Positions 13,095-42,303 of a stretch of DNA of 42,303 nucleotides are shown here, one piece after another. Below the pieces are notes generated by a model, which was given only the letters and a program-made list of their open reading frames with translations, did not search any database and was not told the DNA's origin. The stretch is from Planctomycetaceae bacterium (GTDB lineage Bacteria; Planctomycetota; Planctomycetia; Pirellulales; PALSA-1355), in assembly GCA_003153375.1 (NCBI GenBank), contig PLYM01000107.1, positions 1 through 42,303 on the forward strand. Direction: 5' to 3'. Position 1 is the first letter of the stretch. Each line of letters opens with the position of its first letter. Position numbers and translations under genes: made by a program.

Positions 13095-13156
13095 GACGCT
13101 CTGGCTGGCCGCCGCTGGTCCTTTTGGGTCTTGAATCTTCACCAGGAATTTACACG

Positions 13157-23975: not shown

Positions 23976-24146
23976 CTAGACGTCGTCCTTGAGCTGTCGC
24001 TCGAGCGCGGCCCGCTCGCGGTACAGGTCGACCCACTCAGGCGCGATCGTCGAGCTCAGCGTCGGCTGCATTTCGGCCATGCGAGCCACGACTTCGGCCA
24101 GCCGCCGCTCGGTCGCTGCGCGTTCTTCAGGAGATAGTTTGCCCAT
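23976..24146 (-). CDS. Small charged helical protein (56 aa), hypothetical
   Basis: Starts MGKLSPEERAATERRLAEV and ends in RERAALERQLKDDV; two Glu/Arg-rich helices with heptad-like leucines around a Pro/Trp linker (IAPEWVDLY) suggest a coiled-coil hairpin. No known family recognised. ATG 24146 is preceded by TAGAAT at 7 nt; longer in-frame starts would overlap that hexamer or lie in non-coding-looking sequence. The amidohydrolase gene starts 18 nt downstream, so the two are probably cotranscribed. Confidence 0.6.
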   Translation of the reverse strand: MGKLSPEERAATERRLAEVVARMAEMQPTLSSTIAPEWVDLYRERAALERQLKDDV

Positions 24147-24153
24147 GGCCGGC

Positions 24154-24159
24154 ATTCTA
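24154..24159 (-). promoter_or_regulatory. -10-like TAGAAT before the 56-aa gene/amidohydrolase unit
   Basis: On the minus strand TAGAAT ends 7 nt before ATG 24146, the leaderless arrangement seen at four other genes. No clear -35. Confidence 0.45.
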
Positions 24160-24288
24160 TCACAAAGTTTTTCCGCGAGACCACCAGGGGCCGCACCTTG
24201 CTGGAAATCGCCGGCGCGGTGTGGTAGAACCGACCCGGTCATTTTTCAGATCGTGTCAGCCCGCGGCGAATGGTCTGCCCGCTCCAGC

Positions 24289-25320
24289 ATGTCCGCCACC
24301 CAAATCCATTCGACGGTCGATTTCGCTCGCCCCGGCAAACAGCAGGGCACGCTTTGCATTCCCTATTCGTACAACCTCGGCGGCTGGGCCAATTTGCTGG
24401 TGCCGATTGCGGTGGTGAACAATGGGCCCGGCCCGACGGCCCTGGTGATGGCCGGCAACCACGGTGACGAATATCCCGGCCAGGTCGCCACGTTGCGGCT
24501 GATGCGCGAGCTGGATGCCCGGCCCGAGCAGGTGCGCGGCCGCCTGATTCTGATTCCGGCGCTCAACATGCCCGCGGCCAAGGCGGCCACGCGACTCTCG
24601 CCGTTGGATGGCCGAAATCTCAACCGCTCGTTCCCCGGCCGGGCCGACGGCTCGCCCACCGAGATGATCGCCCACTATCTGACCACGGTCCTGTTTCCGC
24701 TGGCCGACATCGTCATCGACATGCACACCGGCGGGCGCAGCGTCGACTTCTACCCTTGTGCCCACATGCACCTGGTCGAAGACCGCCAGCAGCGCCGCCA
24801 GATGGTCGCCGGCACGCTGGCCTGGAACAGCGACTTCGCCTTTCTCTATGCCGACATCGCCGGCACCGGCTTGCTGCCGGTCGAAGCCGAGCGGCAGGGC
24901 AAGATCGTGATCACTACCGAGATGGGCGGCGGCGAGCCGGTTTCGGCCGCCGTGCATCGCTTGACGCAAACGGGCCTGCGCAACGTGCTCGTTCACTTCG
25001 GCCTGCTCGAGGGCAAGAAGGTCACGCGGGCCGAACTGAACCTGCCGCCCACGCGCTGGGTGCAATCGCTCGATCGCGAGGACTATCGCTTTGCGCCCGA
25101 GTCGGGCATCTATGAGACCTTGCTGCCGCTGGGCAACGAAGTCGAGCGCGGGCAGCCGGTGGGCTTGATCCATTTTCTCGAACGGCCCGATCGCGAACCG
25201 ACCCCGGTCGTGGCCAACACCGCCGGCGTGCTATTGGCCACGCGCGGGCCGTCGCTAGTGGCGCAAGGCGATTGCGTGGCCTGCATCGCACACGACGTCG
25301 ATCCGGCCATTTTGGAATAA
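24289..25320 (+). CDS. Succinylglutamate desuccinylase/aspartoacylase-family zinc hydrolase
   Basis: Zinc-dependent deacylase (343 aa) of the M14 AstE/AspA clan, which cleaves N-acyl amino acids or related amides. Zinc ligands: NHGDE with His58 and Glu61, and DMHTGG with His146. DGRNLNRSFPG (107-117) is the substrate-binding arginine/asparagine loop of the clan. TEMGGGEP (near 206-213) probably supplies the catalytic glutamate. The C-terminal 100 residues form the beta domain of ectoine-type deacetylases (DoeB-like), for example the GNEVERGQPVGLIH segment. A GTG at 24253 could add 12 residues. It is the first gene of a plus-strand run with the DMFase-like and MFS genes, 38 nt upstream of the former. 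Confidence 0.88.
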   Translation: MSATQIHSTVDFARPGKQQGTLCIPYSYNLGGWANLLVPIAVVNNGPGPTALVMAGNHGDEYPGQVATLRLMRELDARPEQVRGRLILIPALNMPAAKAATRLSPLDGRNLNRSFPGRADGSPTEMIAHYLTTVLFPLADIVIDMHTGGRSVDFYPCAHMHLVEDRQQRRQMVAGTLAWNSDFAFLYADIAGTGLLPVEAERQGKIVITTEMGGGEPVSAAVHRLTQTGLRNVLVHFGLLEGKKVTRAELNLPPTRWVQSLDREDYRFAPESGIYETLLPLGNEVERGQPVGLIHFLERPDREPTPVVANTAGVLLATRGPSLVAQGDCVACIAHDVDPAILE

Positions 25321-25358
25321 CCGACCCGCGGGTCACGGCCCCTCGAGGACTCGCAACG

Positions 25359-26942
25359 ATGTTGGTGGGTTATGTCAGCGACGAGCGGTACGTGGCGCTG
25401 GCCGACGTGCTGTTGGAATTCGAAGGCCCGGCCGGCTCGATCGAAGCCCGTTCGCGGGCCAGCGGCGCCGTCCATGCCGAGCTTCCGCCCGGCACGTATC
25501 GCGTCACGCTGCAAAAGCCCGGCTATGGCGCCAAGCGCGTGCAGATCGAGTTGCCGGCCCCCGCGCCCCATCACTTTCGCTTGCTCGCCGACGGGCTGCT
25601 GGGCTATGCCTGGCCCAAGTGGGTGCGAGCGGGCGAGCGCGCCGAGTTTCGCATCCACTCGGTCGAGCCCTACAAGATCGATCTCTGGCGCTATGGCTGG
25701 CGCAAGGAACTGGCCGCCAAGATTGGATGGTTCGATGAGCACGGACCGCTGGCCACGATGCAGATCACGCCCGATGGCGACTACACCCAAACCGGCGTCG
25801 CGTGGAACAAGCACGGCTACGGCAGTTGGCAACACGCGCAGCGCGTCGCCGCGCCCGAGCGCTCGGGCCTGTACTACTTTCACGCCCGAACCGACAGCGG
25901 CCGATTCTTTGCCTTTCCTTGGATCGTCGCGCCCGCCGCGCCGACGGCGCCCATCGCCGTACTGGCCTCGAACATCACCTGGAACGCCTACAACAACTTC
26001 GGCGGACGCAGCAACTACATCCATGCCGATCGTCTGCCGCCGACCCCTACGGTCAACGCCCGGCTCGAGCTGGCTCGCTACAACGATCCCGAGTTCGGCA
26101 CCTGGAACGCCGAGGAATACGCCCCGCTGTCGTTCGACCGTCCCGAACCGATCAATCACATTCCCGAGCAAACGCAAATCACCGACCCGATCGAGGGCCG
26201 CGCCGCCTGTCACGTCGCGCCCACCGAATGGCGGTTGCTGGGCTGGATGGAGCGCGAGCGGTTGGCCTACGATCTTTATGCCGAAACCCAACTGCACGCC
26301 GGGCAACTCGATCTGGATGCCTACCGCGTGCTGGTGATCAGTACGCACCCGGAGTATTGGTCGCGCGAAATGTATCAGGCCGTCAAGCGCTGGGTGTTCG
26401 AGCGCGGCGGGCGGCTGGTCTATCTGGGCGGCAACGGAGTGAACTGCGAAGTCTCGCTGCCTGATGCCGGCACGATGATCGTCCACAACGGCGACAGCCG
26501 CAAGTTGCGAGCCAACCCGCGCTACGAAAGTCGATTGGGCATGCGGCTGGAGTCGGAAGCGAACCTGCTGGGCGTCGTCTACACCGAGACCGGTGTCATG
26601 ACCGCCGCGCCCTACCGCGTGCTCAACGCCGAGCACTGGGCCTTTGCCGGCACCGGGCTGGCCAACGGCGACGAGTTCGGCGCCGCCAGCCTGCACGAGC
26701 GAATCCCCGGCGGAGCCTCGGGCCACGAGACCGACAAGATCTCGCCCAGTTCGCCCGCGGGCGTGCAGCACCTGGCCAAGGGTCTCAACCCCGACGACGG
26801 CGGCGCGGATCTGATCACCTTCGAAACCCCGCGCGGCGGCGCGGTGTTTTCCGTTGGCTCGATCTGCTGGCCCAGTTCCCTGTTGGTCGACGAAAGCGTT
26901 TCGAAAATCACGGCCAACGTGCTGCGGAGATTCGCTCGCTAG
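25359..26942 (+). CDS. N,N-dimethylformamidase beta-subunit-like protein
   Basis: 527 aa. The C-terminal two thirds match the large (beta) subunit of N,N-dimethylformamidase, an iron enzyme that hydrolyses the amide bond of dimethylformamide: LASNITWNAYNNFGGRSNY (about 207-225), STHPEYWSREMY (about 328-339) and GGRLVYLGGNG (about 349-359) are family signatures, with Tyr and Glu residues available as iron ligands. The first 80 residues form a carboxypeptidase-regulatory-like beta sandwich (LADVLLEFEG, AELPPGTYRVTLQKPGY). No small alpha subunit gene is present in this window, so the natural substrate may differ from dimethylformamide. No signal peptide. Start ATG 25359 has GAGG about 12 nt upstream. 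The MFS gene begins within 45 nt of its stop. Confidence 0.85.
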   Translation: MLVGYVSDERYVALADVLLEFEGPAGSIEARSRASGAVHAELPPGTYRVTLQKPGYGAKRVQIELPAPAPHHFRLLADGLLGYAWPKWVRAGERAEFRIHSVEPYKIDLWRYGWRKELAAKIGWFDEHGPLATMQITPDGDYTQTGVAWNKHGYGSWQHAQRVAAPERSGLYYFHARTDSGRFFAFPWIVAPAAPTAPIAVLASNITWNAYNNFGGRSNYIHADRLPPTPTVNARLELARYNDPEFGTWNAEEYAPLSFDRPEPINHIPEQTQITDPIEGRAACHVAPTEWRLLGWMERERLAYDLYAETQLHAGQLDLDAYRVLVISTHPEYWSREMYQAVKRWVFERGGRLVYLGGNGVNCEVSLPDAGTMIVHNGDSRKLRANPRYESRLGMRLESEANLLGVVYTETGVMTAAPYRVLNAEHWAFAGTGLANGDEFGAASLHERIPGGASGHETDKISPSSPAGVQHLAKGLNPDDGGADLITFETPRGGAVFSVGSICWPSSLLVDESVSKITANVLRRFAR

Positions 26943-26984
26943 CCTTTGTCCGGCGAAGGCCCCAAAAACGTTCGAGATCCCTGC

Positions 26985-28334
26985 GTGACTTCCTTGCGCG
27001 AAACCGCCGCCGAACCCCTTGCGTCGCCTGCCGATGGGCCCGCGACGCACGCCCGCTTTGGCGTGCTGGGCTTGCTCTGTTCGCTGGCATTCATTCTCTA
27101 TCTCGATCGCGTCTGCATCGGCAAGGCCGTGGTGGCGATCGAAACGGATCTGAATCTGAGCGATACCGAGATGGGCTGGGTGCTCGGCGCGTTCACGATT
27201 GCCTATGGACTCTTCGAAGTGCCGACGGGCCGCTGGGGCGATCGGTTTGGCTCGCGCGGCGTGCTGGCGCGGATCGTCCTCTGGTGGTCGGCGTTTACGG
27301 CCCTCACCGGCGCGGCCAACGGGCTGACCATGCTGCTGGCCGTCCGCTTCCTGTTCGGGGCCGGCGAGGCCGGCGCTTATCCGAACGCGGCCCGCGTCAT
27401 CGCCCGCTGGTTTCCGCTCGAGGAGCGCGGCCGCGTGCAGGGCCTGATGCTCACCGCCGCGCAACTGGGCGGCACCGTCGCGCCGGCGCTGGCGGCCTAT
27501 CTGATTGTCGCCGTCGGCTGGCGCTGGACCTTCGTCGTCTTCAGCGCGCTGGGCCTCGTTTGGGCGGCGGCCTTCTACTGGTGGTTCCGCGACGATCCGG
27601 CCACGCACCCGGCCACCAACACCGCCGAGCGAGCCCTGATCGCCGCCGGCTCAACCTCGGCGCAAACCGAACACGAGCTGCCCATCCCCTGGCGGGCGAT
27701 CCTCTCCAGCAGCAATGTCTGGCTGCTGGGTTGCCTGCAAAGTTGCTCTTCGTTTTTCTCCTACATGATCATGAGCTGGTATCCGACCTACCTGGAGAAA
27801 GGCCGCCACGTCGACCCGATCGAGGCGGGCTGGCTGTCGTCCCTGGTGTTGGCCGGCGCGGCCGTGGGCTGCCTGTCGAGCGGATTTGTCACCGATTGGC
27901 TGGCCCGCGTGACGCACCGTCATCCGGCCCGTCATCGCTACTATGGTTTCGCCGGCACCGCGCTGGCCGCGCTCGCCCTCTGGGCGGGCATCGAGTGCGA
28001 ATCGCCCCTGGCCACCAGCCTGTGGGCCGCGCTGGCCTTCATGGCCGCCATCTCGCAGCAAGCGACCTTCTGGACCGTGACGATGGAGATCAGCGGCCCG
28101 CACCTGGGCACTGTGTTCGGCCTGATGAACTCGATGGGCGTGCCCGGCGCCTTTGTCTCGACGGTCTTTCTCGGCCGGTTCGTCGACTGGATGGCCGCTC
28201 ACGGCTATGCCGGCCGCGCACAGTGGGATCCGGCCTTCTACATCTACGCCGGCGTGCTGGTGATCGGCGCCTGCTGCTGGTTGGCCGTTGATGCCAGCCA
28301 GAAAATCCCCGACAGCGAGCCAGCGGCGGACTGA
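26985..28334 (+). CDS. MFS transporter, anion:cation symporter (ACS) type
   Basis: Inner-membrane carrier with twelve hydrophobic segments, first one at LGLLCSLAFILYLDRVCIG, typical of the ACS family that imports hexuronates, glucarate, phthalate and other organic anions. VPTGRWGDRFGSRG is the signature loop after TM2. FLFGAGEAGAYPNAARVIARWF is a diagnostic ACS segment around TM4. It is last in a run with an aspartoacylase-like and a DMFase-like hydrolase and probably imports their substrate. Start is uncertain: TTG 26946, four bases after the previous stop, gives 13 more residues, GTG 26985 is chosen; neither has a good ribosome site at normal spacing. Confidence 0.9.
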   Translation: MTSLRETAAEPLASPADGPATHARFGVLGLLCSLAFILYLDRVCIGKAVVAIETDLNLSDTEMGWVLGAFTIAYGLFEVPTGRWGDRFGSRGVLARIVLWWSAFTALTGAANGLTMLLAVRFLFGAGEAGAYPNAARVIARWFPLEERGRVQGLMLTAAQLGGTVAPALAAYLIVAVGWRWTFVVFSALGLVWAAAFYWWFRDDPATHPATNTAERALIAAGSTSAQTEHELPIPWRAILSSSNVWLLGCLQSCSSFFSYMIMSWYPTYLEKGRHVDPIEAGWLSSLVLAGAAVGCLSSGFVTDWLARVTHRHPARHRYYGFAGTALAALALWAGIECESPLATSLWAALAFMAAISQQATFWTVTMEISGPHLGTVFGLMNSMGVPGAFVSTVFLGRFVDWMAAHGYAGRAQWDPAFYIYAGVLVIGACCWLAVDASQKIPDSEPAAD

Positions 28335-28341
28335 CGCGCTG

Positions 28342-28866
28342 CTACTTTTTCGGCACGCCCAGCTCTTCCAGCTTCTTGGCGATGTCCTGGCCGGCCTGCT
28401 TGGTGTTGATCATCTTGTCGACGGCTTTCACCTTGCCGTCGCTGCCGATGTAGAACGTCCACCGTTCGGCCACCGCGCGGGCGGGATGCACCACGCCATA
28501 GGCTTCGGCCGTCCTTTTGCTTGGATCGCTGAGGATCGGGAAGTCGAGGTCGAGCGATTTGGCAAAGTCGGCGTTCTTCTGCGGTTCATCGACGCTGGCG
28601 GTGAAATAGGCGACGTCGAAACCGTGCAGCGCCGCGCTGCTGGCTTTCATGTCCTTGCACTCAGCGGTGCAGCCGGGCGTGAACGCCTTGGGGAACCAGG
28701 CCACGACGACCATTTTCTTGCCGGCAAAATCGGCCAGCGCATATTCCTTGCCGTCCGATCCTTGCAGTTTGAAATCCGGAGCCTTCTCGCCCACGTTCGG
28801 CGCGTCGGCCCAAGCGGATAGCGGCACGAGGGCGACGAGCGCGGCGGCGATGGCAAAGCATTTCAT
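28342..28866 (-). CDS. Peroxiredoxin (AhpC/TSA, PrxQ-like), exported
   Basis: Thiol peroxidase (174 aa) reducing hydrogen peroxide or organic peroxides. A Sec signal (1 to about 21, ending AWADA) puts it in the periplasm. The thioredoxin-fold core has VGEKAPDFKLQGSDGKEY, and the peroxidatic motif is PKAFTPGCTAEC with Cys66, Thr63 and Pro59. A second cysteine, Cys70, three residues further on, is the likely resolving residue; classical BCP/PrxQ has four residues between them, while the shorter spacing is seen in other bacterial members. ATG 28866 has AGGAGA about 9 nt upstream. It ends 7 nt from the convergent MFS gene and follows the paralogue pair by 12 nt on the same strand. Confidence 0.92.
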   Translation of the reverse strand: MKCFAIAAALVALVPLSAWADAPNVGEKAPDFKLQGSDGKEYALADFAGKKMVVVAWFPKAFTPGCTAECKDMKASSAALHGFDVAYFTASVDEPQKNADFAKSLDLDFPILSDPSKRTAEAYGVVHPARAVAERWTFYIGSDGKVKAVDKMINTKQAGQDIAKKLEELGVPKK

Positions 28867-28878: not shown

Positions 28879-30093
28879 CTAGGCGGTTGCAGTCGGGGCG
28901 CCGGCGAATTGCGAGGCCCGCGAGGGACGATATCGAACGGCCAACTGCGGCGTGTCGAGCCGCTGGTGGCCGCGCACTTTCGAATCGAGACACAGATCCA
29001 GAATGCCGCAGACGAGCTGCGTCCGTTCGGCCGGATAGGGCGCCTGGCCGGTGGCGAACATTTCTTGGGCCTTGTGCATCAGGCTGGCCGAGTAGACCAC
29101 GTTCGGCGTCGGCGGCAGTTGGAACAACGTCGAAATGTATTGCGATTGCCCCCGCAGCCGGCAGGCGAACGTGTAGTCGGTGACGGCGCCGTTGAGCATC
29201 AGCAACGTGGCCCGCAAGCCGTCGGTGTACTCGATAAAATACGCGGCCGGCTGCTTGACCAGTTGCTCGAGCTCGCCGCTGTGCGTCAAGTCCTGCGTGC
29301 GGCCGTCCTCCAGCGCGATACCGGTGCGCGATTGTGATCGCGACAGCGCGGCTTCGAGCAGGCGGCGCGACCAGCGACCATCTTTGGCGGCCTGCCACAC
29401 GGCGGGGCCTTCGATCATCTGCACGGCTTTGACGCCCGTCTCGCCGTTGCGGCGCCGTTCGAGCATGCACTGCATGGCTTCCAAGGCGTGAAAGTCCATC
29501 GCGTCCGAACCGCCGACGCCGACCATCAACGCCTCGTCGATCTGGCAGTCCAGCGGCAGCTCGATGTTCGGCAACCGCCAGGTCACGGGCAGGCTCGAAC
29601 CGGCCAGCAACGGAAAACCCAGCCGCTTCGATGCCGCCACCATCTTGCTGGCCTTGTCGAAGCTGTACGACAAGTGTTTGTCGTTGAACACCGGCACCGC
29701 ACGGCCGTCCTTGTCGAACACCACCACGATCTGTTCGAAGAACTCGTAGCGCGGATAGAGAATCTGTCCCTTTTCGTTGCTCGGATACTCGCCGTGCTCG
29801 CCGATCACCAGCACCGCGTCGACCGCCAGTTTCTCGCCGCCGCACCGCAGGGCCTCGGCGATCGTGGGATAGACGGTGAAGCCAAACTCCTGGGCTCGAG
29901 AGGCGCTTTGATCGCCGGCCGGCTTCTGGTCAACGTAGAGCGAAACCACGTCCATCTCGGGCCGGTGCCAGCGGCCGTTCCACGGATAGCCGACCAGAAA
30001 GCGATCGCCCATGTGCTGCGCGTGCGACTGATAAGTCCACACCGTGGTGACGATCGCCAGCCGCTTGCGAGGTTTCTTGTCTGCGTCGCTCAT
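28879..30093 (-). CDS. Planctomycete conserved protein, paralogue of the upstream gene (404 aa)
   Basis: Not assigned to a named family. It shares clear blocks with the adjacent 438-aa protein: VSLYVDQ, YPTIAEAL-x-x-GG-x-KLAVD, VLIGEHG-x-Y, NEKGQ-x-LYPRYEFF, VPVFNDKHLS, FHALE and YP-x-ERT. The first 130 residues (RLAIVTTV then AVLVIGEHGEY) have the beta-alpha rhythm of a Rossmann-like fold, reminiscent of but not clearly Gfo/Idh/MocA. No Tat or Sec signal is present, unlike the paralogue, so this copy is probably cytoplasmic. A basic start MSDADKKPRKR is present. It is 6 nt downstream of the paralogue, so cotranscribed. Function unknown; it may act as a partner or as an isoform in another compartment. 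Confidence 0.8.
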   Translation of the reverse strand: MSDADKKPRKRLAIVTTVWTYQSHAQHMGDRFLVGYPWNGRWHRPEMDVVSLYVDQKPAGDQSASRAQEFGFTVYPTIAEALRCGGEKLAVDAVLVIGEHGEYPSNEKGQILYPRYEFFEQIVVVFDKDGRAVPVFNDKHLSYSFDKASKMVAASKRLGFPLLAGSSLPVTWRLPNIELPLDCQIDEALMVGVGGSDAMDFHALEAMQCMLERRRNGETGVKAVQMIEGPAVWQAAKDGRWSRRLLEAALSRSQSRTGIALEDGRTQDLTHSGELEQLVKQPAAYFIEYTDGLRATLLMLNGAVTDYTFACRLRGQSQYISTLFQLPPTPNVVYSASLMHKAQEMFATGQAPYPAERTQLVCGILDLCLDSKVRGHQRLDTPQLAVRYRPSRASQFAGAPTATA

Positions 30094-30099
30094 CGTGCT

Positions 30100-31416
30100 T
30101 TAGGTCCTGCGAAACGTCGAGTTGGGATTCGGCTGATAGCGGATCGCCAGATGGGGCGTCTGCTGCACGGCCCCTTTTTGCCACAACGATTCCACGCCGG
30201 CCGCCACCAGGCCCGTGGCCAGCAGCGTGCGTTCGACCGGATAGGGCGATTGGCCGGTCTTGATGAATTGTTCGATGTGCCAGACTAGCGAGTCGAAGTT
30301 GTGCGGCTGCGTGCCGTGATCGGGACCCAGCAACATCAGCGACGACAGCGGCTCGGCCTGTCCCTTCAGCCGGGCGGCAAACGTGATGTCGTTCACCACG
30401 CCGTTGAATAGCAGCATCGTGGCCTTGACGCCGTCGGCATACTCGAAGCGATAGGCCACCGGATCTTTCACCATCCGCCGCATGTCGGCCGCCGTGGGAT
30501 AGCTGTGTCCAAAGCCCTCGCGCGCGGGCACCAATTGCTGACTGCGGCACAGGCAGGCTTCCAGCAATGCCGGATCCCATCCGCCGCTGGCCCACGATCC
30601 GGCTTCCAGGGCCTTCCACACCGCGTCGCCGCTGAGGGCCTGCAACCGCACCACGCCCTGCTCGCCGCCGCGGCGCCGTTCCACAAACGCTTGAATCGTT
30701 TCCAGCGCGTGAAAGTCATAGCTGTCGACGCCGCCGTTGCCCACGGCCATCACTTCCTCGACGTCGGCATCCAGCGGCATTTCCACTTGCGGCACGCGCC
30801 AGGTGATCGGCACGCTCGATCCGGCCATGAACGGGATCTTCATGCTCCGCGCCGTGTCGACCATTTCCTTCGCCCGGTCCCAGTTCCACGACAGGTGCTT
30901 GTCGTTGAACACAGGCACGCTCCGCCCGCTGTTACGAAACACGTCCACGGTTTGCTTGAAGAACTCGTAGCGCGGATAGAGATACTGTCCTTTTTCGTTC
31001 TGGCCGTAGTTGCCGTGCTCGCCGATGAGCACCACGCCATCGACCGCCAGCTTGTCGCCGCCCAGCGTCAGCGCCTCGGCGATCGTGGGATAGATCTTCA
31101 GATCTTTGAAGCGGCTGGCCCGTTCGCGGCTCAAGTCGCCCGGGGGAAACTGATCGACGTACAGCGAAACCAGGTCAACTTCGGGGCGATGGTGTTCGCT
31201 CTCCCAGCCGTAACCCTCGAGCAGCCGATCGATGATCACCTCACCGTGCGAGAGCTTGCGCACCTCGGTCACCAGCGCCGCGATCCGCGGCCGCCCAGCC
31301 GGCTCGGCCGCCGGCGCAACATACGGCTTCCCCAGCGTCAACAACGCCGAAGCGCCCGCACCGGCCAGCACCGTCCGCCGCGAAACCCTCAACCGCTCAT
31401 CTCGTGCGTCGCTCAT
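30100..31416 (-). CDS. Planctomycete conserved protein with Tat signal, paralogue of the downstream gene (438 aa)
   Basis: Same unrecognised family as the gene at 28879. The N-terminus MSDARDERLRVSRRTVLAGA is a twin-arginine signal (SRRTVL) followed by a hydrophobic Ala/Leu stretch, so this copy is exported folded, which suggests a bound cofactor or a complex. Shared blocks include VDLVSLYVDQ, LIGEHGNY, NEKGQYLYPRYEFF, VPVFNDKHLSW and AYRFEYADGVKATMLLFNGVVND. Conserved polar residues cluster in EHG-x-Y and FNDKHLS, plausible active-site loops. Start ATG 31416 places the Tat motif properly; the frame is open to 31500 without coding sense. It lies 128 nt after the creatininase-family gene on the same strand. 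Confidence 0.82.
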   Translation of the reverse strand: MSDARDERLRVSRRTVLAGAGASALLTLGKPYVAPAAEPAGRPRIAALVTEVRKLSHGEVIIDRLLEGYGWESEHHRPEVDLVSLYVDQFPPGDLSRERASRFKDLKIYPTIAEALTLGGDKLAVDGVVLIGEHGNYGQNEKGQYLYPRYEFFKQTVDVFRNSGRSVPVFNDKHLSWNWDRAKEMVDTARSMKIPFMAGSSVPITWRVPQVEMPLDADVEEVMAVGNGGVDSYDFHALETIQAFVERRRGGEQGVVRLQALSGDAVWKALEAGSWASGGWDPALLEACLCRSQQLVPAREGFGHSYPTAADMRRMVKDPVAYRFEYADGVKATMLLFNGVVNDITFAARLKGQAEPLSSLMLLGPDHGTQPHNFDSLVWHIEQFIKTGQSPYPVERTLLATGLVAAGVESLWQKGAVQQTPHLAIRYQPNPNSTFRRT

Positions 31417-31544: not shown

Positions 31545-32297
31545 TCACCACGTCCGCCCATTCCAATCGAGCATCCGTTCCAGCAGCGTGACCACGTCGG
31601 CCGTAAAGATTTTCAGCAACGCCTCGCCCTTGGCGGCGCTGGCGGCGCTGGGTTTGCCGATGTGGCCGATCGCGCTGCGGTCCTTGGTGGTCCAGCCACG
31701 ATACACCGGATCGAACGTCCCGCTCGGGTCGACCGTCGTGGCGTTCTGGTAGTCGCCCACCAGGTGCGGCGCGAGCGACAGAATCATCGACGTCTCCCAT
31801 TCGCAGGCGTGGCCCATCGCGTGTTGCACGAGCGACGGATCGGATTCGTGCGGCTGCGAGCCCAAGGCCCAGTAACAGGCAAACAACAGCAGCAGATCCT
31901 CGCGCTGCCGATGGCGCTGCCGCACTTCGAACACGGCCTGCTGCCCCGGCACGTTGTTGCCGCCATGGCCGTTGACGAGCACGATGCGTTTGAAGCCGTG
32001 CGTGATGAAGTTCTCGATCATGTCGACCAGCAGATCGAGATAGCCGCGGGGCGAGGCCGATATCGTGCCCGGAAAATCCAAGTGGTGCTCCGAATTGCCC
32101 AGCCACATCACCGGCGCGAACAGCACCCGGTCGTGCAACTGGCGCTCGGCACGCCGCGTGATCTCGCCCACCAGCATGCTGTCGGTGAACACGGGCAGAT
32201 GATGGCCGTGTTGCTCGAGCGCCGCGATGGGAATCGCCACGGGCGTATCCTTCGACAGCGCGGCCACGGCGGGCCAGGTCATTTCGACAAGTTGCAC
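31545..32297 (-). CDS. Creatininase-family amidohydrolase
   Basis: Metal-dependent cyclic-amide hydrolase (250 aa) of the creatininase/MftE/ArfB group. Signature residues: EQHGHHLPVFTDS with Glu28, His30 and Asp39 as metal ligands, NGHGGN (near 119-124) with a ligand His, and ACEWETSMIL (near 167-176) with the second ligand Glu. Members act on creatinine, formamide-type intermediates or, as MftE, process a mycofactocin precursor; no mycofactocin genes are here, so the substrate is open. Start is a GTG at 32297 with GGGAG 8-9 nt upstream. It lies 21 nt after the phosphoesterase gene, likely cotranscribed. Confidence 0.9.
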   Translation of the reverse strand: MQLVEMTWPAVAALSKDTPVAIPIAALEQHGHHLPVFTDSMLVGEITRRAERQLHDRVLFAPVMWLGNSEHHLDFPGTISASPRGYLDLLVDMIENFITHGFKRIVLVNGHGGNNVPGQQAVFEVRQRHRQREDLLLLFACYWALGSQPHESDPSLVQHAMGHACEWETSMILSLAPHLVGDYQNATTVDPSGTFDPVYRGWTTKDRSAIGHIGKPSAASAAKGEALLKIFTADVVTLLERMLDWNGRTW

Positions 32298-32318: not shown

Positions 32319-35060
32319 TTATTCGTCGTCGTCATCATCATCGTCAAAGCCGGCTCGCATGTCGTCCGGATCGTCCATCTTCGGCGACTTCAGCAGGCTG
32401 TTCCAATCGAATCCATGATCGAACGGCTTGAGCGCCTTGGCCGGATCGAACAGCCGCTCGTCAACCCGCACCAGGTCATAGGGTGTCAGGTCCGGCTGAT
32501 CGGCAAAAAAGTCGCGCGGCAGCGAGGCCCCGGCGTCGAACTGGTTCAAGTAAGGCAAATCCAACACCGTGAAGATCATCTTCAGCACCGAGCCAAAATT
32601 CATCAATTGGCTCGACACGAAATGCCGCTTCACGTGTGGGCTGATGAGCAGCAACAGCGATCGATGTGCGTCGACGTGGTCGCGGCCCCCTTGCGGATCG
32701 TCCTCGGTGACGACGATCAACAGGTCTTTCCAGAACGGCGACCGCGACAGCGTTTGCACCAGCCGGCCCAAGGCCAGATCGTTGTCGGCCATGTACGACT
32801 CGCCGAACGGATAGCCCGCCTCGGGCCGCTCGCCCGACAGGTGATCGTTCGGCAACACCATCGTCACCAGCTGGGGAAACGGTTCCTTTCCGCTGGCCCA
32901 GCGGTCGCGAAATTCCTTCTCGAACACGTCGATCCGATACTGATCGGGAATGCTCATGTTGAAGGTTGGATAGGTGCGCGAGGTGTGATCGAACAGCGGC
33001 TTGGGCAGCGGGAAACTGACGCTCATCTGCACGCCGGTGTGCTTGTGAATCTGCTCCTCGAGCGACATCGGCATTTCGGTGCCGAAGCCAAAATTGAAAA
33101 ACGGAATCCCCTTGCGGTCCAGATGCTCCCACAGCGCCCCGGCTTCGTTGTAGTCCTCGGGCAGCACCGTGGCGCTCGAGCCGTTCACATAGCGCCGGCC
33201 CGGCGCCTTGCTGAACGGTCGGGCTTCGATTCGCGATCGGGCGTTGACCTCGACCCATTCGTTGGGATACACCCCCACCACCCAGCGATGGCCCGTGTTC
33301 GACTGGTCGGCATCGCAATAGAAGTTGTCGCTGATCGCGAACCGGTCGGCCAACGCCTGATGATTCGGCGCCACGTTGACGTCGGCATAGGTCTCCAACC
33401 GCTTGTTCACCACCGTGGCCGACCGGCCAAGGTGCGCGAGCGTCGGATCGCCCGCCACGTCGGGGCGTTCGCCATAAACCTGGTCGAACGTGCGGTTCTC
33501 TTTGACCACGAACACGACGTGCTTGATCGGGCTGGCGCGCAGGCCCGAGGCCGGGGGCAGCGGATTGCGGCCGTCGTCGGCCACTTCGCGGCGGCGATAG
33601 GTATTGTCGACGACCTGCTGCGTGAAGCCCTTCAGTTCTTCCGCATTGGGCACCGCCACGCGTTGAAACAGCCCCTGCATGATGTCGCCGGGATGCGACC
33701 CGCGCTCCGGCGGCACGAAGCCGCGTCCGCCGTTGGGCCCCGAGCCAAATCCCTTGGCGCTCGACACGAACAACTCGCGCCCATCGCGCGAAATCTCCAC
33801 GAGGGCACAGAACCAGCCCGCGGGAATGTAACCCTCGAGCTTGCGCGCCGCCGTGTCGACCACGGCCACGGCATTCAAACCCGCGCAGGCCACGTAGAGT
33901 TTCACCTCGTCGGGGCTCAGCGCCAGCCCAAACGGCAGCACGCCGCGCAGATCTTCCAGCCCCGGCACGTTCAGCTCGACCTGGGCGACGATCTCGTTCT
34001 TCGCAATGTCGATGATCGAGATCGTATCGTTCGTGGCGTTCGACACGTAAGCAAACTGTCTGTCCACGGCCACCGTGCTGGGACTGGCGCCGCCGACGGT
34101 GTTGATGTTCTTGCGTCGCGCGCCAACCAGGTAACCCGTCTTGAGCCGCGCTTCGACGCGGCCATCGGCCAGGTTCACCTTGAACACCGACATCGCGTCG
34201 GGGTGATTCGGAGAGCCCAAGCCGGGAATGAAGACCCCCGCGACGACCACGCCCTCCTCCGCTTCCTTCGAGGGAACGCCATAGGCCGGAAACGCCAGCC
34301 CGGCCGTGGCCCGTGTCGTGGGCGTGACGCCCGGCAGCAGCGGATACTCGAACATGCCGACGTTCGACACCCAGGCAAACTTTTCGTCGGGCGACAAGCA
34401 GACGCCGAACGGATTGCGGCCCACGCGCACCGATTGCGAGACCTTGCCGCCTTCGAGATCGACGGTCACCAGCCGATAATTGTGCTGATCGACGGCGACG
34501 ATTCGCCGGCCGTCAGCGGTGACGACGAAATCGCCGACAAAGCTGTCTTCGTATCCGTCGCCATCCAGCGGAATCGACGCCATCTCCTGCCGCGTGGCCA
34601 CGTCAAAGCTCAGGATCAACCCCCGGTTCGCGCTGCCCACATACAGCTTCGAACCGTCGGGCGAAAAGGCGGCGCCCATGTACATGCCGTCGGCCCCTTT
34701 GCGCTTCGGCTGATTGGGCTGGTCGCCCGCGGGCACGGTCCGCTCGCGCACTTCCAACGGATCGAGCCCGATCCACTGAATGGCCCCGGCCGAGATCAGC
34801 GCGGCCGTGCGCTGGTCGGGACTGACCGCCAGGCCCCAGCTATACGATTGCGTGCGCACGTGCTTGCCGGCCGGCGTCAGATGCCGGCCATTGATCAGCA
34901 CCGCGTGCTCGGCATCGATCGACGGTCGCGACATCGCGCCCGGTGGCTCGAGCACCGTCACCATCCGCGGGCCCTCGCCCCGCGCGCTGCCCGCCAGCAT
35001 CGCCCACGCTGGGCCGACCCACGTCAGCCAGAGCCACGTCGCTCGTCCGAAACGCTTCAT
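32319..35060 (-). CDS. Bifunctional YncE-type beta-propeller/phosphoesterase (alkaline phosphatase-like), exported
   Basis: 913 aa. A Sec signal (1 to about 28) precedes a seven-bladed YncE-like propeller (about 40-490; repeats such as AFSPDGSKLYVGSANRG and VVDTAARKLEGYIPAGW). Residues about 510-900 are a phosphoesterase of the acid phosphatase/phospholipase C family: VVKENRTFDQVYG with Glu521-Asn522, then DADQSNTGHRWVVG and VTEDDPQGGRDHVDAHRS, which carry the metal-binding Asp/His residues. The protein ends in a run of acidic residues. This fused architecture is known in other bacteria, so the fusion itself is not new. The natural phosphoester is unknown. It lies between the PQQ-like propeller gene (30 nt) and the creatininase gene. 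Confidence 0.9.
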   Translation of the reverse strand: MKRFGRATWLWLTWVGPAWAMLAGSARGEGPRMVTVLEPPGAMSRPSIDAEHAVLINGRHLTPAGKHVRTQSYSWGLAVSPDQRTAALISAGAIQWIGLDPLEVRERTVPAGDQPNQPKRKGADGMYMGAAFSPDGSKLYVGSANRGLILSFDVATRQEMASIPLDGDGYEDSFVGDFVVTADGRRIVAVDQHNYRLVTVDLEGGKVSQSVRVGRNPFGVCLSPDEKFAWVSNVGMFEYPLLPGVTPTTRATAGLAFPAYGVPSKEAEEGVVVAGVFIPGLGSPNHPDAMSVFKVNLADGRVEARLKTGYLVGARRKNINTVGGASPSTVAVDRQFAYVSNATNDTISIIDIAKNEIVAQVELNVPGLEDLRGVLPFGLALSPDEVKLYVACAGLNAVAVVDTAARKLEGYIPAGWFCALVEISRDGRELFVSSAKGFGSGPNGGRGFVPPERGSHPGDIMQGLFQRVAVPNAEELKGFTQQVVDNTYRRREVADDGRNPLPPASGLRASPIKHVVFVVKENRTFDQVYGERPDVAGDPTLAHLGRSATVVNKRLETYADVNVAPNHQALADRFAISDNFYCDADQSNTGHRWVVGVYPNEWVEVNARSRIEARPFSKAPGRRYVNGSSATVLPEDYNEAGALWEHLDRKGIPFFNFGFGTEMPMSLEEQIHKHTGVQMSVSFPLPKPLFDHTSRTYPTFNMSIPDQYRIDVFEKEFRDRWASGKEPFPQLVTMVLPNDHLSGERPEAGYPFGESYMADNDLALGRLVQTLSRSPFWKDLLIVVTEDDPQGGRDHVDAHRSLLLLISPHVKRHFVSSQLMNFGSVLKMIFTVLDLPYLNQFDAGASLPRDFFADQPDLTPYDLVRVDERLFDPAKALKPFDHGFDWNSLLKSPKMDDPDDMRAGFDDDDDDDE

Positions 35061-36998: not shown

Positions 36999-39900
36999 CT
37001 ACCGCAGCGATTGCAAAAACGCGATCAGGTCGGCCAGGTCTTGGCGGCTGAGCTGGGCGTCCATGCCCTCGGGCATGATCGAGACTTTGCTCTGCGTGAT
37101 TGATTCGATCGCCGTGCGGGGGACGCGGGTCTCGACGCGCGAGTTGTTGACGATGTGAATCGCTTCGGCCGTTTCGCGGGCGATGATGCCCGAGAGCACC
37201 TGGCCGTCGTCGGTCACCACGGCGAACGACTCGAACCCGCGGGCGAAGCTGGCGCTGGGAAAGACGATTGCCTCGAGCAGATCGCGCGGGGCGCGGATGG
37301 CGCCGATCTTGGTCAGGTCGGGCCCGATGCGGCCCCCCTGCCCTTGCACCGAGTGGCAGGTGGCGCAAATCGCCTTCTTGTTGGCAAAGAACAAATCGCG
37401 CCCGCGCTGAATCTCGCCGCCGGCCAGCACATCCTGCAACTCCGCCAGCCGAGCCTGTTGCTTGGCGCCATCGACCTTCAACTGCTCCAACAGCGGCCCC
37501 GCCGCCTGGCGAACCGAATCGGGATAGCCGCGCAGCACCGCCGTCAACGATTCGACTTGCAAGCTCTTCAGCCCCGGCGAATGCCCCAGCGCCGCGAGCA
37601 ACGCCTGGCCCACCGCGGCGTCGGCCGAACGCTCGAACGCCGGCAGCAGCTTGGGAACTTCCAACACGCCGGCCGAGGCCAGCGTGCCGCACAATGTCTT
37701 GAGCTGCGCCGCGTCGAGCTGCGACTTGCCCAACGCTTCGGCCGCGTCGAGTCGCACCAGCGGCGGCCGGTCGGCGGCCACGCTGGCGCGCAGCAAATCG
37801 AACAGCCCCGGTTCCACACTCGCCAGTCGCGTGGTCACCGCGGCGCCGGCCTGCACGCGCACGTCAAGCGGCACGCTCGGGTCGTTCGCCAGTCGCAACA
37901 GCGGGGCGTCAAACTCGCTGGAGTCGACATCCGGAAACGTCTCGACCGCGCCGCCCAGTTCATAGAACTCCGCGATCAACCCTTTCTTGAGCGCCGCCGG
38001 CTCGCCGGGCCGGGCCGTGCGGGGACGATGAAACAATACCTCGGCCGGAATGATCTGCTTGTCGTGATCCGGAAACTGCCACGACATTTTGCAGCCGGCT
38101 TCCCCCTCGTCCTGAATGAAATCGAGTCGCAGCGCGTGCTCGCCGGCTGCCAATTGCACGCGTCCCTCGCGCTCGCGCATGCCGTGCAGGCCGCCGTTGT
38201 CGACGACCAGCTTGCCGTCGATGAACAGTTGCGAGCCGTCGTCTGAGTCGGTGAAGAACGTATAGGTCGCCTCCCGTGGGCAGCGGATCACGCCCGACCA
38301 GCGAACGCAAAAATTCTCTGACAGTCGCGTGCCGGCAAAACGCTTTTCGGTCTCGGGGAAATTCACCTGGGCGTCGACCCTCAGAATCAGCGGACGTTTA
38401 TCCAGTGGCATGGCCCGTAGCGTCGCCACGGTCTGCCGCACCACACGCTCATCGGCATCGGCGATCGACGCTTGCAGCGGCGCCATCCACGCTCGCGGCA
38501 GCTTGCCCAGCGGGGCCTGCGCCATGACTTCCAACAGCGCCAATCGCGTAGCCACCGGCGTGCGGCCGTCGGCCACGGCCGTGCCAATCAACGCCTGCAC
38601 GTCCTGGTCGCCGGTGAAGGCCAGCAGTTGCCGCTTGAGCTCCTCGCGCCGCGCGTCGTCCAGATCTTTTTGTCCGATCCATTGGCGAAAAAACTCGACC
38701 ATCGCGCTGCCCCAGTCGCCGTGATGGCCGATGACCCACAGCGCCGTCTGCTCCATCAGCGGATCGCCGGGCGCCAGGTACGGCGTCACGGTCTCGGGCG
38801 TCAATTGCCCGCCGTCCATCTGGTCCAGCGCGATCAGCGCCCCGCGTTTGACCGGCGAACTGGCGATCTCCAAACCGCGCAGCGTGTTGGGCTGATCGCC
38901 GATGCGAATCAGCGCGAAGATCAGGGCATGCTCCAAAAACCGATCGCCCGCAAAATTCAAACCCGTGAACAGCGCCGGCAGGGCCTCGCGGTCGCCGAGT
39001 CGTCCCAGCGCCGTGGCCGCTTCGCGCTGCACGGCCGGCTCGCCCGCGTCCGTCAGGTCCATCAACGTGTGTAGTGCCTTGCTGTCGCGGTGCAGCCCGG
39101 CCGATCGCGCCGCGGCCTGGCGCACGCCCGCGCTGGAGTCTTCCAACGCTCGCCGCACCGCCGTCCGCGCCGGCTCGCCGTCGATGCGAGTCAACGCCCA
39201 CACCGCCGCGCACTTTGTCTCGGCGGCCGCATCGCCGTTGAGCACCCCGAGCAGCGGTGCCACGGCCGGCGCGCCCTGTTTGGCCAGTTGGGCCACGGCC
39301 CGATCGCGCACCGCGAACCGGGAATCGGCCAGCAGTTTGGTCAACTCCGCGGGCGACTGCGCACTCCAGGCAATCTTCGCTCCCCAGGCGTCGGCAACCG
39401 CCGGCGCGGCCGTCTTGCGCACGCGATAGATGCCGCCCAGCACGTCGGGCTTGGCAATCTGCGAGGTTGGGCAGCCGATGCGAAACCAGGCACCGGTGTC
39501 GATCACCAGCAAGCTGCCGTCGGCGTCCTCCATAACGTCGGTCGGGTGAAAATCGGCCTGGCTCGAAACCAGAAAATCCTCGTTGCGGCACGTGAACGAA
39601 GCGCCCGAGCGTTCGATCTTGTGCCGCACGATCTTGTGCATATTGAACAGGGCCGAATAGAGATTGCCGCGAAACTCCTGGCCCCAGGCGTCGCCGCGAT
39701 AGATCGTCAGGTCGGAGGCGGCCGCTACGCCCAGATGCGTCAGCGGCGGCAGCAGGTCGCCGGTCCGCTTGTGTTCGTGCAACACCCGATCGCGCACCGG
39801 ATACTCGCCGCCGTCGACGCAGTGAATCAACGCGTCGCGCAGTCCCGCGCCCATCGAGTTGGGAGCCAGGAACGTGCCGCTGGCGAACATGTCCCCCTCG

Positions 39901-40586
39901 CAGGTGAAGGCCACGCCGACGGCATTGCCCTGCGATCCGCACACCACTTCCAGATCCGAACCGTTGGGCCGGCAGCGCAGCACCAGCGGCGCGGTGCCCT
40001 CGTGAATGACCGGCCCGTCCGGCCGTTGGATCTTGTGTGGAAAGCGGCCCGCGCACCAATAGATCCGACCATCGGGCCCCAGGCTGCCGCCGTGCATGTC
40101 GTCGGCCACGCCCGTGTTGGCAAACCCGGTCACCAACTCTTCGCGCTTGTCGGCCACGCCGTCGCCATCGGTGTCCTCGAGCCGCCAGAAGCTGGGCGGC
40201 GACGAACAGTAAACCGCGCCGTCGTGCCACACCACGCCCTGCGGAAACACCAGCTTGTCGGCGAACACCGTGCTCTTGTCAAAGCGGCCGTCGCCGTCGG
40301 TGTCCTCGATCATCCGAATCACGTGCGGCGGGTTCTTGGCCAATTCGGCCCCCCGCAAATTCACACCCGCCGAGTCCGCCACATACAGCCGCCCCCGATC
40401 ATCAAAACTCGCCAACATCGGCCGCTCAACCAACGGCGCCCCCGCCGCCAGTTCCACCGTAAAACCCTTCGGCAACCGAATCGCCTCCACCCCCGACTTC
40501 TCATCGGCAGCGCGCGCTGCGGCGAAGGACAATAGCGAAAATAAGATAAGTGCGCTGACGATACGCGTTGAAAAATGACACAGCAT
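36999..40586 (-). CDS. PVC-type heme-binding CxxCH protein with PA14 domain (1195 aa)
   Basis: Second member in the window of the TIGR02604/TIGR02603 family. Sec signal 1 to about 27. N-terminal propeller about 30-400 (RGRLYVADS, DTDGDG loops, ADDMHGGSLGPDGRIYW). HEAT-like repeats about 410-720. A PA14 carbohydrate-binding domain about 737-860 (YTFFTDSDDGSQLFIDGKLVVDN). More helical repeats, then the c-type heme domain with Cys1074-AT-Cys1077-His1078 and GPDLTKIG; Met near VSIMPEGM may be the axial ligand. PA14 is absent from the 1026-aa relative at 1865 and suggests binding of a glycan. A purine-rich AAGGAG lies 13 nt before ATG 40586, rather far. It precedes two small membrane-protein genes. 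Confidence 0.9.
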   Translation of the reverse strand: MLCHFSTRIVSALILFSLLSFAAARAADEKSGVEAIRLPKGFTVELAAGAPLVERPMLASFDDRGRLYVADSAGVNLRGAELAKNPPHVIRMIEDTDGDGRFDKSTVFADKLVFPQGVVWHDGAVYCSSPPSFWRLEDTDGDGVADKREELVTGFANTGVADDMHGGSLGPDGRIYWCAGRFPHKIQRPDGPVIHEGTAPLVLRCRPNGSDLEVVCGSQGNAVGVAFTCEGDMFASGTFLAPNSMGAGLRDALIHCVDGGEYPVRDRVLHEHKRTGDLLPPLTHLGVAAASDLTIYRGDAWGQEFRGNLYSALFNMHKIVRHKIERSGASFTCRNEDFLVSSQADFHPTDVMEDADGSLLVIDTGAWFRIGCPTSQIAKPDVLGGIYRVRKTAAPAVADAWGAKIAWSAQSPAELTKLLADSRFAVRDRAVAQLAKQGAPAVAPLLGVLNGDAAAETKCAAVWALTRIDGEPARTAVRRALEDSSAGVRQAAARSAGLHRDSKALHTLMDLTDAGEPAVQREAATALGRLGDREALPALFTGLNFAGDRFLEHALIFALIRIGDQPNTLRGLEIASSPVKRGALIALDQMDGGQLTPETVTPYLAPGDPLMEQTALWVIGHHGDWGSAMVEFFRQWIGQKDLDDARREELKRQLLAFTGDQDVQALIGTAVADGRTPVATRLALLEVMAQAPLGKLPRAWMAPLQASIADADERVVRQTVATLRAMPLDKRPLILRVDAQVNFPETEKRFAGTRLSENFCVRWSGVIRCPREATYTFFTDSDDGSQLFIDGKLVVDNGGLHGMREREGRVQLAAGEHALRLDFIQDEGEAGCKMSWQFPDHDKQIIPAEVLFHRPRTARPGEPAALKKGLIAEFYELGGAVETFPDVDSSEFDAPLLRLANDPSVPLDVRVQAGAAVTTRLASVEPGLFDLLRASVAADRPPLVRLDAAEALGKSQLDAAQLKTLCGTLASAGVLEVPKLLPAFERSADAAVGQALLAALGHSPGLKSLQVESLTAVLRGYPDSVRQAAGPLLEQLKVDGAKQQARLAELQDVLAGGEIQRGRDLFFANKKAICATCHSVQGQGGRIGPDLTKIGAIRAPRDLLEAIVFPSASFARGFESFAVVTDDGQVLSGIIARETAEAIHIVNNSRVETRVPRTAIESITQSKVSIMPEGMDAQLSRQDLADLIAFLQSLR

Positions 40587-40674: not shown

Positions 40675-42303
40675 CTACGGCTCCCGAATGATCTCGGTGA
40701 TAATCGTCCTCGCGAACGAAGATGTGTGACGCGCTTCAATCAACATTTCGTCGAGCATCGCTCTGTGAGGGCGAAGATCTTGCTGACCAAGACGTCTTAG
40801 AAATTTGGTTATATCCCCAGTAATGCCAGCGTAGAATAGCGCGACCTGTCGCCACCAAGGATCAAAGACGTTCTTGACCAACAGCCCAATATGCTGGCCC
40901 AGCGCGACACCATTTGCCGCAAGATATTCTTGATATGACAAATGGCCAAGCGAATAACGGTCCCGAGATTCGTGAAAGATCACGTTGTCGACGGAACGCA
41001 ATTCTGAGAGTAACTCTTGCACAGAAACGTCCGGATACGTCCTGGAGAGGCCCTCGCGCCAAATCTTGTCTGCGTCCGCCAACCCAAACTCACGGCGATG
41101 CCCTTTTTGTAGCAGCAGTGCCATTCGAACAAGGAATGTCATCTTATCACCCGGCATCAATCTCGCCCGCAGGACAACTTTTCTGATCGGATCCCATCGC
41201 TCCAGGAGTAGGGCGAATCGTGTTCGATAAATGTCAGTCCGTGATTGGGGCAGCGGCAGTTCCTTTTCGTGAATTGCGGCAACAATTGTGGCAGTCATAG
41301 GTGTCCGGCAGATTTCCCGTACACGCGGATTTGCTTCGAGAAATGAGATCACCTCTTCACTCTTGCGGCTTGCCCCACGGAACCATCGCTCAAAAAATTG
41401 GACAAGTTGCTCGTCATTAAATGGCAGTACGCGCAGGCTTCCGAATGTCCGAGGGAGTTCAAGAGGTTCGGCCTCTCTGCTAGTCACAATGATCCGCGGG
41501 CTCGCGTTGGCAACCTGCAGTTGAAGTCGTTCAAACGCCTTTTCCCACGGCGTCCCACGATTCGCGCGAATTACGCGGCGCCAGTCCGAGCTGTTGATTG
41601 GATCGGAGATTTCGAGGGTAGCCGTGCGATTTCTCTTCGTTAAGGTCACAGTAAACGCGTCAATCAAGTCATCGGGAATCCAGTAGTTCGCACTTATCGG
41701 AAACGGCAGTGTGACGGAACTGTTGGAGAAACTTAGGGCCAGTAGATCGCTTGCGAGACGCGTACGATATGTGGCGGCTTCATCACAGCCATCTAAAATG
41801 ATCAGGTCGGCATTTCTTTTGATTGTTGCGAACGACGTGCCGGGTTCGAGTGCATTTATCGACGACAAGAAGTCAACGATTGCAATATCTAGCGGCGTCT
41901 CGCTATCTTGGATTCGCGAGCAAGGGAAGTAGACACATTTTGCCTCGGTGCCGAGTGATACTTCCGCTAACACGCGAGCAATACACGTTTTGCCTGCGCC
42001 AGCGTCGCCCAAAAGACAGATGTTGTCCGGCATCTTGAGGATTGATGCAGGCTCGACGTGCTCGAGTCGCATGTCCGTTGGGGGCGCCCCGCTCCCTCGT
42101 TCGATCAGGTCCGCACGAAAGTGAGAATATAATGCGTCGGCAAGTCGCCCGGCGGTCGCAACGACGTCAACGATCTCGGATAGAAGTTCGATTCGTCTGT
42201 TTGGGTCTTTCAGTCGAGCCAGTTGCCTTTTAGCACCTTTGACATATGCAAACACCGATCTGCAAAACTCTTTAAAGCGGGGTCTATAGCGGAATCTGTG
42301 GGT
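40675..42303 (-). CDS. NACHT-type STAND NTPase, 5' end outside the window
   Basis: Signal-transduction NTPase of the NACHT class. Numbering from the first in-window GTG (42255): Walker A GDAGAGKT (83-90), Walker B LIILDGCDE (151-159), sensor RIIVTSRE (254-261) and a winged-helix end motif LGHLSYQEYLAANG (436-449), characteristic of NACHT proteins. The frame stays open for all 16 codons from 42255 to the window edge, so that GTG is probably internal and the N-terminal effector is not seen. About 95 residues lie between Walker B and the sensor, longer than usual. Only about 77 residues follow the winged helix, as in short-tailed bacterial NACHT proteins. GC is about 50% in a sampled line, well below the neighbours. 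Bacterial NACHT proteins are often antiphage; here that is inference. Confidence 0.85.
   Translation of the reverse strand, partial: THRFRYRPRFKEFCRSVFAYVKGAKRQLARLKDPNRRIELLSEIVDVVATAGRLADALYSHFRADLIERGSGAPPTDMRLEHVEPASILKMPDNICLLGDAGAGKTCIARVLAEVSLGTEAKCVYFPCSRIQDSETPLDIAIVDFLSSINALEPGTSFATIKRNADLIILDGCDEAATYRTRLASDLLALSFSNSSVTLPFPISANYWIPDDLIDAFTVTLTKRNRTATLEISDPINSSDWRRVIRANRGTPWEKAFERLQLQVANASPRIIVTSREAEPLELPRTFGSLRVLPFNDEQLVQFFERWFRGASRKSEEVISFLEANPRVREICRTPMTATIVAAIHEKELPLPQSRTDIYRTRFALLLERWDPIRKVVLRARLMPGDKMTFLVRMALLLQKGHRREFGLADADKIWREGLSRTYPDVSVQELLSELRSVDNVIFHESRDRYSLGHLSYQEYLAANGVALGQHIGLLVKNVFDPWWRQVALFYAGITGDITKFLRRLGQQDLRPHRAMLDEMLIEARHTSSFARTIITEIIREP

Follow-up and report, generated by a model that had tools for sequence, protein, structure and literature searches.

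A tandem pair of paralogues with a predicted Gfo/Idh/MocA fold, probably a heteromer exported on a single Tat signal

Glucose-fructose oxidoreductase (GFOR) and the GH109 proteins, both of the Gfo/Idh/MocA fold, include members that carry export signals. For the Gfo/Idh/MocA oxidoreductases in general, PMC5969746 describes a Lys, an Asp, and a His as catalytic, EKP as a conserved motif, and the reported structures as homodimers or homotetramers. A second kind of described system is that of the hitchhiker complexes of the twin-arginine translocation (Tat) pathway, such as the Ni-Fe hydrogenases, the formate dehydrogenases, and PaoABC, in which the twin-arginine signal of one subunit serves the whole folded complex, as set out in PMC10924467 and PMC4273604. 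Here, we describe two adjacent paralogous genes, A and B, in a 42,303-nucleotide (nt) contig of a Planctomycetaceae bacterium (PLYM01000107.1; the whole contig is referred to as the window). Their products probably constitute a heteromer of the Gfo/Idh/MocA fold that is exported via one Tat signal, and we favor this reading because of natural fusions of the two genes, their co-occurrence across genomes, and the swapping of the leader between the partners. The same observations support one of the two explanations offered in an earlier note on this DNA, namely a heteromer piggy-backing on one Tat signal.

The products of A and B are identical at 189 of 401 positions (47%; BLASTP E 5e-129), a likeness that, judged by sequence, is far beyond chance. 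The blocks SLYVDQ, LYPRYEFF, and VPVFNDKHLS are common to both. LIGEHG-x-Y is present unchanged in A, with VIGEHG-x-Y in its place in B. An AGGA lies within the 3′ end of A, 11 nt ahead of the ATG of B, and the two genes are predicted to form one operon. The N terminus of A is MSDARDERLRVSRRTVLAGAGASALLTLGKPYVAPAAE, a classical twin-arginine leader (RVSRRTVLAGAGASALLTL) with a canonical SRRTVL and a hydrophobic stretch; that of B is MSDADKKPRKRLAIVTT, with no leader. The earlier note was therefore correct in describing tandem paralogues with long common blocks, in their coordinates, strand, and spacing, and in assigning a twin-arginine signal to the upstream copy only. TatC is encoded in the same genome (PF00902, E 3e-50), so this bacterium combines the two features of a hitchhiker system, one leadered subunit and TatC in the genome. 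The genome holds four copies of the family, i.e., A, B, and one each on contig 46 (58% identity to A) and contig 162 (44%), and the latter two each have a Tat leader.

A scan of a genome collection with a 23-row alignment as the query confirmed at least 577 loci, of which the best 80, ranked by similarity to A of the window, were kept; with this ranking, unpaired B genes would be missed. The 80 loci carry 11 phylum labels, Acidobacteriota (28), Poribacteria (16), Planctomycetota (15), Verrucomicrobiota (5), Latescibacterota (4), Gemmatimonadota (4), Chloroflexota (3), Actinomycetota (2), and Armatimonadota, Handelsmaniibacteriota, and Pseudomonadota (1 each), which come from the record titles of metagenome-assembled genomes (MAGs), so that individual labels may be wrong. 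A family confined to planctomycetes, as the earlier note had it, was rejected on this distribution. No relative was confirmed in the viral contigs scanned. Within the order of the window, 18 of 38 relatives (own genome left out) gave a match to the family; an adjacent pair was present in 3 of these 18, all from the window's own taxonomic family, and the others had single copies. With B as the query, a phylum-wide draw of 118 other genomes gave matches in 6 (E 1e-30), and the only close one, in G099, has an A-type gene (by best BLAST matches) 0.87 kb upstream. Directly behind this leaderless A-B pair, on G099 contig 130, lies a canonical Gfo/Idh/MocA gene (L143, 7198-8217; PF01408, E 8.1e-19).

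A tree of 162 rows, with local Shimodaira-Hasegawa-like support, sorted the family into a B clade of 66 rows (support 99), an A clade of 70 (81), a clade C of 16 single genes (92), and 10 other rows. Three loci (L033-L035) that repeat L005-L007 were left out of the tree, their A and B being named by position, and one alignment (A3) was discarded, as every single subunit in it was aligned to the B half of a fusion. A and B share a locus in 66 of the 69 A-bearing loci, i.e., 64 with both on the tree plus L044 and L106, which are pairs cut by a contig end whose second member is not on the tree. The distance between the two genes is 140 nt or less in 60 of the 64 loci, with a maximum of 2,177 nt (L074), and in three loci (L056, L064, and L111) A and B are fused into a single open reading frame (ORF) of 810 to 817 residues from the likely start. 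A recent local duplication was rejected, since the split between A and B is deep in the tree. The two appear instead to be old clades that go back to an ancient duplication and have remained paired ever since, as far as the A-ranked scan shows. Whether the pair is always together, and whether relatives are usually single, as the earlier note had asked, thus has a different answer for different branches: the A and B lineages are nearly always paired among the A-ranked loci, and the other branches, including clade C, are not (15 of the 18 matching relatives in the order are single). Of the singles of the order, 15 were placed on the tree, 5 of them in clade C and 10 at other positions that belong to neither A nor B.

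An AlphaFold2 model of mature A built on 71 rows had a predicted local distance difference test score (pLDDT) of 95.9 and a predicted template modeling score (pTM) of 0.94. Its best PDB match, obtained with Foldseek and VIA-align 2, was GenD2 (6nor_C; Z 25.5, root-mean-square deviation 3.5, 282 residues), followed by a myo-inositol dehydrogenase (4mie_D; Z 24.3), KanD2, a scyllo-inositol dehydrogenase, NAD (nicotinamide adenine dinucleotide)-dependent sulfoquinovosidases, DgpA, GFOR, and GH109. In total, 762 of 1,000 PDB chains reached a Z of at least 8, and the 50 top listed entries had Z values of 21.7 to 25.5 over 258 to 298 residues. The model shows the two domains that define Gfo/Idh/MocA proteins, an N-terminal Rossmann domain and an α/β C-terminal domain, so that the Rossmann/oxidoreductase match sought by structure prediction was obtained. 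At the sequence level, neither A nor B had a Pfam or NCBIfam match above cut-off. Among 71 aligned members, the best E value was 0.0097 in Pfam and 0.0052 in NCBIfam, in neither case from a Gfo/Idh model; a nearer set of 23 members had the same Pfam outcome, and PF01408 was unlisted at E values up to 1 in either set. A profile search of PDB sequences returned three chains, all Gfo/Idh, at E 0.36 to 0.38, and hhalign against 28 of the 30 canonical PF01408 places in the bacterium's own genome gave E 4e-6 and a probability of 87 over the N-terminal domain. A characterized enzyme family is thus recognized in the fold and none claims the pair by sequence; the part of the earlier note that called the family unrecognized stands in this second respect, and a small-scale search of the open-access literature found no description of the A-B pair. 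By its modeled fold, we would assign the A/B family to Gfo/Idh/MocA as a variant rather than a member, because it neither matches the superfamily profile nor has the glycine loop where this normally stands. B is expected to have the same fold on the basis of its identity to A and of the B half of a model of the L064 fusion, which had a pLDDT of 86.0 and a pTM of 0.86 over 810 residues, with both halves of the Gfo/Idh/MocA fold. A pTM of 0.86 is above expectation for two randomly placed domains, and the model suggests a defined arrangement of the halves.

The conserved residues of the family, numbered here as in mature A, suggest a changed cofactor arrangement. GxGxxG was absent from the first 24 residues in all 168 family rows (6 of them duplicates). 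Counted anywhere in the protein, the loose pattern hit 26 of the 28 canonical proteins encoded in the same genome and 102 of the 168 family rows, and a stricter one failed to discriminate (19 of 168 versus 12 of 28); such counts were dropped as evidence. The stretch after strand 1 reads T-x5-S-H, with Thr7 in 64, Ser13 in 61, and His14 in 69 of the 71 rows, and an insertion, EHG-x-YPxN or in fuller form EHGxYPxNEKGQxLYPR, is found after strand 4. Nearly fixed in the same rows are Glu90 (69), His91 (69), Asp129 (70), Lys130 (69), His131 (67), Gly156 (71), Ser157 (71), Ser158 (70), Arg164 (71), Asp188 (70), and His193 (69). In the secondary structure of the A model, the majority of these residues come just after a strand of the Rossmann sheet, which would place the pocket at the sheet edge where NAD sits in relatives. 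Profile alignment sets NDKH onto the EKP motif, and [FY]xDKH is present in 162 of 168 family rows and in none of the 28 canonical proteins; the six exceptions comprise two rows with DKN, two from which the whole stretch is missing, and two in which the Lys has been lost (B of L076 and L091). Asp188 and His193 are tentatively equated with the known catalytic Asp and His from sequence context, a match that the global profile alignment does not settle. NAD may be bound in another way, or by A alone, or another center may be used. A bolder reading, which is unlikely on present evidence, is that this widespread family gave up classical dinucleotide binding for another center at the same sheet edge (His14/His17, Glu90/His91, and Asp129/Lys130/His131, perhaps with a metal or buried cofactor) and became an obligate heteromer, one partner being possibly a mere Tat escort and the signal free to move between the subunits. 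Its probability is slightly reduced by the presence of a GxGxxG-like string elsewhere in A.

After correction by hand, the 61 separate pairs have a leader on A only (12), on B only (15), on both (10), or on neither (24), and none of the three fusions has one. TatC was found in all 12 other genomes chosen (in G171 as a fragment only), five of which are leaderless. These leaderless pairs and fusions, in genomes that have TatC where this was tested, would fit two cytoplasmic proteins whose leaders are weak or vestigial and whose export is of no consequence. Such a view is nonetheless rather improbable, since the leader in the window is canonical and leaders are few in their changes: on the pair tree (pairs and the window, 65 rows, with the three fusions treated as leaderless), the A leader changes 4 times, the B leader 5 times, and the four-way state 7 times, but the presence of a leader on either partner changes only twice, which argues that it is kept and not randomly decaying. 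Two or fewer such changes were seen in 21 of 1,500 simulations in which A and B leaders were independent with those counts (P = 0.014).

The leader also swaps between sister groups of Acidobacteriota, one of 9 loci (8 with a leader on A only and L087 on both) and one of 14 loci (B only), with a joint support of 85. In L076, the sole leader is on B (9366-10517), which by alignment has lost His14, EHG, DKH, and His193, and the intact, leaderless A retains them. A degenerate B is also present in L091 (5314-6453), again with pocket residues lost by alignment and kept by its A partner, and here both are leadered. Leader swapping and the pattern in L076 are expected if A and B are exported as a folded complex that needs one signal only, and the single export signal has probably moved between the partners during evolution. 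As a separate observation, L077 (7977-11814) holds three genes of the family in a row, one of A and then two of the B clade, with Tat leaders on all three by the leader rule.

The other explanation offered in the earlier note, a two-sided process with A outside and B inside, each as a homo-oligomer acting, e.g., on a common substrate before it is taken up and again afterward, is unlikely. It would suit the window and the 12 pairs with a leader on A only, as well as the transporter of the major facilitator superfamily (MFS) close by, a putative importer. In addition, the fold can evidently do without a partner in clade C, whose genes are single and Tat-leadered in all 11 of its scan loci. However, neither partner has a fixed compartment, given the pairs with a leader on B only, on both, or on neither and the swap between sister groups, and the three natural fusions place both halves in one compartment. 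A nonenzymatic pair that senses a ligand or nucleotide, comparable to yeast Gal80p, chains of which were matched by Foldseek and VIA-align, would agree with the changed NAD loop but is very improbable, as the Lys, the His, EHG-x-Y, GSSxP, and R164 are retained in nearly all 71 rows, hydrolases are among the neighbors, and a secreted regulator would be unusual.

We therefore return to a heteromer exported on one Tat signal. The pairing, the fusions, the predicted fold, the residue conservation, and the leader swapping are what the analysis shows; from them we infer a mechanism that extends to complex formation in the cell, co-export, cofactor, substrate, and reaction. In it, A and B would be subunits of one enzyme-like heteromer that arose from an old duplication and assembles in the cytoplasm. 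In this bacterium, the folded complex would leave through Tat on the leader of A alone, with B hitchhiking. The dinucleotide-holding loop after strand 1 would have been replaced by T-x5-S-H, with the EHG-x-YPxN insertion following strand 4, and a Lys (DKH for EKP) and a His of the Gfo/Idh type would be retained. The chemistry may be of a sugar, polyol, or hydroxy-acid type with a changed cofactor arrangement, and the pair may belong to a catabolic cassette that also encodes the hydrolase of the creatininase family and the putative MFS importer.

Several points weigh against this mechanism. A lacks a B in the stretch examined in L037 and L112 (one MAG) and in L101, and in L074 the B gene is 2.2 kb from A. 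The mirror-tree correlation of 0.76 includes shared species history, and the fusion model was built on 15 rows, 12 of which were obtained by translating across the stop codon that separates the two genes. The leader calls come from a simple rule that was loosened between two rounds and corrected by eye six times: leaders upstream of the likely start were dropped (L109-A, L097-B, and L053-A), two were added (L082-B and L083-B), that of L044-A, outside the 64 loci, was also judged spurious, and the weak one of L036-B was retained. The uncorrected rule gave 14 pairs with a leader on A only, 14 on B only, 10 on both, 23 on neither, and 3 fused. The leader-change events are few in number. The neighbors are inconstant, with a creatininase relative near the pair in only 11 of the 80 loci. 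Finally, 69 of the 70 A rows have a GYGWxG-like string at residues 25 to 30, which none of the 66 B rows or 16 C rows has, and profile alignment places the canonical GxGxxG on this string and not on T-x5-S-H. We did not take it as the nucleotide loop because it forms a hairpin behind the first helix in the A model, itself a prediction. At the same place, GYP is found in 66 of 66 B rows and 16 of 16 C rows, which makes the string a clean mark of the A lineage.

The genes around the pair (Table 1) suggest a catabolic setting, with low confidence on the substrate. The product of the gene directly upstream of A resembles the MftE, creatininase, and IolN models, below all their cut-offs. The 11 loci with a relative of it within 3 kb belong to Planctomycetota (3, of the window's family), Acidobacteriota (5), and Gemmatimonadota (3). 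When creatininase places in genomes were matched to loci by contig-range arithmetic, the neighboring copy was the sole one in two of the five Acidobacteriota genomes (G161 and G162), one of two in two others (G167 and G168), and one of three in G166, so adjacency by chance is unlikely there; it could be chance in the two Gemmatimonadota genomes searched, with 10 and 12 matches. By tblastn of the 80 loci, 6 have a relative of the MFS gene close to the pair, five of them with the creatininase relative too, and a gene for a peroxiredoxin-like protein adjoins the pair in L033-L035, three relatives of the window's family. Elsewhere, the neighbors vary and include M19 dipeptidases, amidohydrolases, DUF362, class V aminotransferase-like proteins, and PhyH. 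A Pfam tally (101 of 157 neighbor ORFs) found no constant partner among the 25 families listed of 81, with M19 at 7, creatininase at 4, and others at 3 or fewer; the ORFs were chosen by length, some are not genes, and the two largest clusters, by reading, are other frames of the pair.

Table 1. Coordinates of the gene pair, its leader, and the adjoining genes in the window
Feature	Coordinates	Strand	Basis or remark
Gene A, 438 aa	30100..31416	(-)	ORF and sequence
Tat leader of A (SRRTVLAGAGASALLTL), roughly 40 N-terminal aa	31297..31416	(-)	Sequence; TatC in genome
A-B spacer, 6 nt, stop of A to ATG of B, same frame	30094..30099	(-)	Sequence
Gene B, 404-aa paralogue without leader	28879..30093	(-)	ORF and sequence comparison
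Creatininase-family amidohydrolase, directly upstream of A	31545..32297	(-)	PF02633, E 7.6e-64
Peroxiredoxin-like protein, downstream of B	28342..28866	(-)	AhpC-TSA, E 5.7e-31
MFS transporter, convergent, on the other side of the pair	26946..28334	(+)	Best NCBIfam model a D-galactonate transporter, below cut-off

Beside the MFS gene, genes for a DoeB-like deacylase and an N,N-dimethylformamidase-like protein (DMFA2_C) were found at 23989-26942 (+), further hydrolases of the amide type; a DMFA2 match was present in 1 of the 80 loci (L034) and a DoeB match in none. Other genes of the window encode a protein with a β-propeller, a phosphoesterase domain, and an acidic C-terminal run, DDDDDDDE (32319-35060, -), two large proteins of the DUF7133-HEAT-cytochrome c type, of which one also has a PA14 domain (1865-4945 and 36999-40586, both -), a single open frame that joins a β-lactamase-type domain to a glucose/sorbosone dehydrogenase domain (13124-15325, +), and, near the window edge, a NACHT-domain NTPase that is possibly a defense gene (40675-42255, -; PF05729, E 4.6e-9).

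These results unite hypothetical proteins from genomes with 11 phylum labels as a single object for experiment, an uncharacterized and probably heteromeric branch within a large fold of sugar enzymes. The leader series, with A only, B only, both, none, and fused, is a natural set for studying the evolution of Tat hitchhiking, in which the B of L076 is a possible dead escort subunit. Compared with known systems, the A model has in common with the Gfo/Idh/MocA oxidoreductases (inositol dehydrogenases, GenD2/KanD2, DgpA, oxidoreductive sulfoquinovosidases, GH109, and glucose-fructose oxidoreductase) the two-domain fold, and profile alignment puts the Lys of their EKP under the DKH of the A/B family. 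Unlike them, the family has no PF01408 match and no early GxGxxG, has DKH for EKP, and carries the EHGxYPxNEKGQxLYPR insertion; it is also a lasting pair of paralogues, whereas the structures described in PMC5969746 are homodimers or homotetramers. The creatininase-family product shares PF02633 with creatininase, MftE, and IolN, and accompanies the pair in a minority of loci only. In contrast to the Tat hitchhiker complexes, A and B are paralogues of one predicted fold between which the leader appears to have moved, and their export is predicted.

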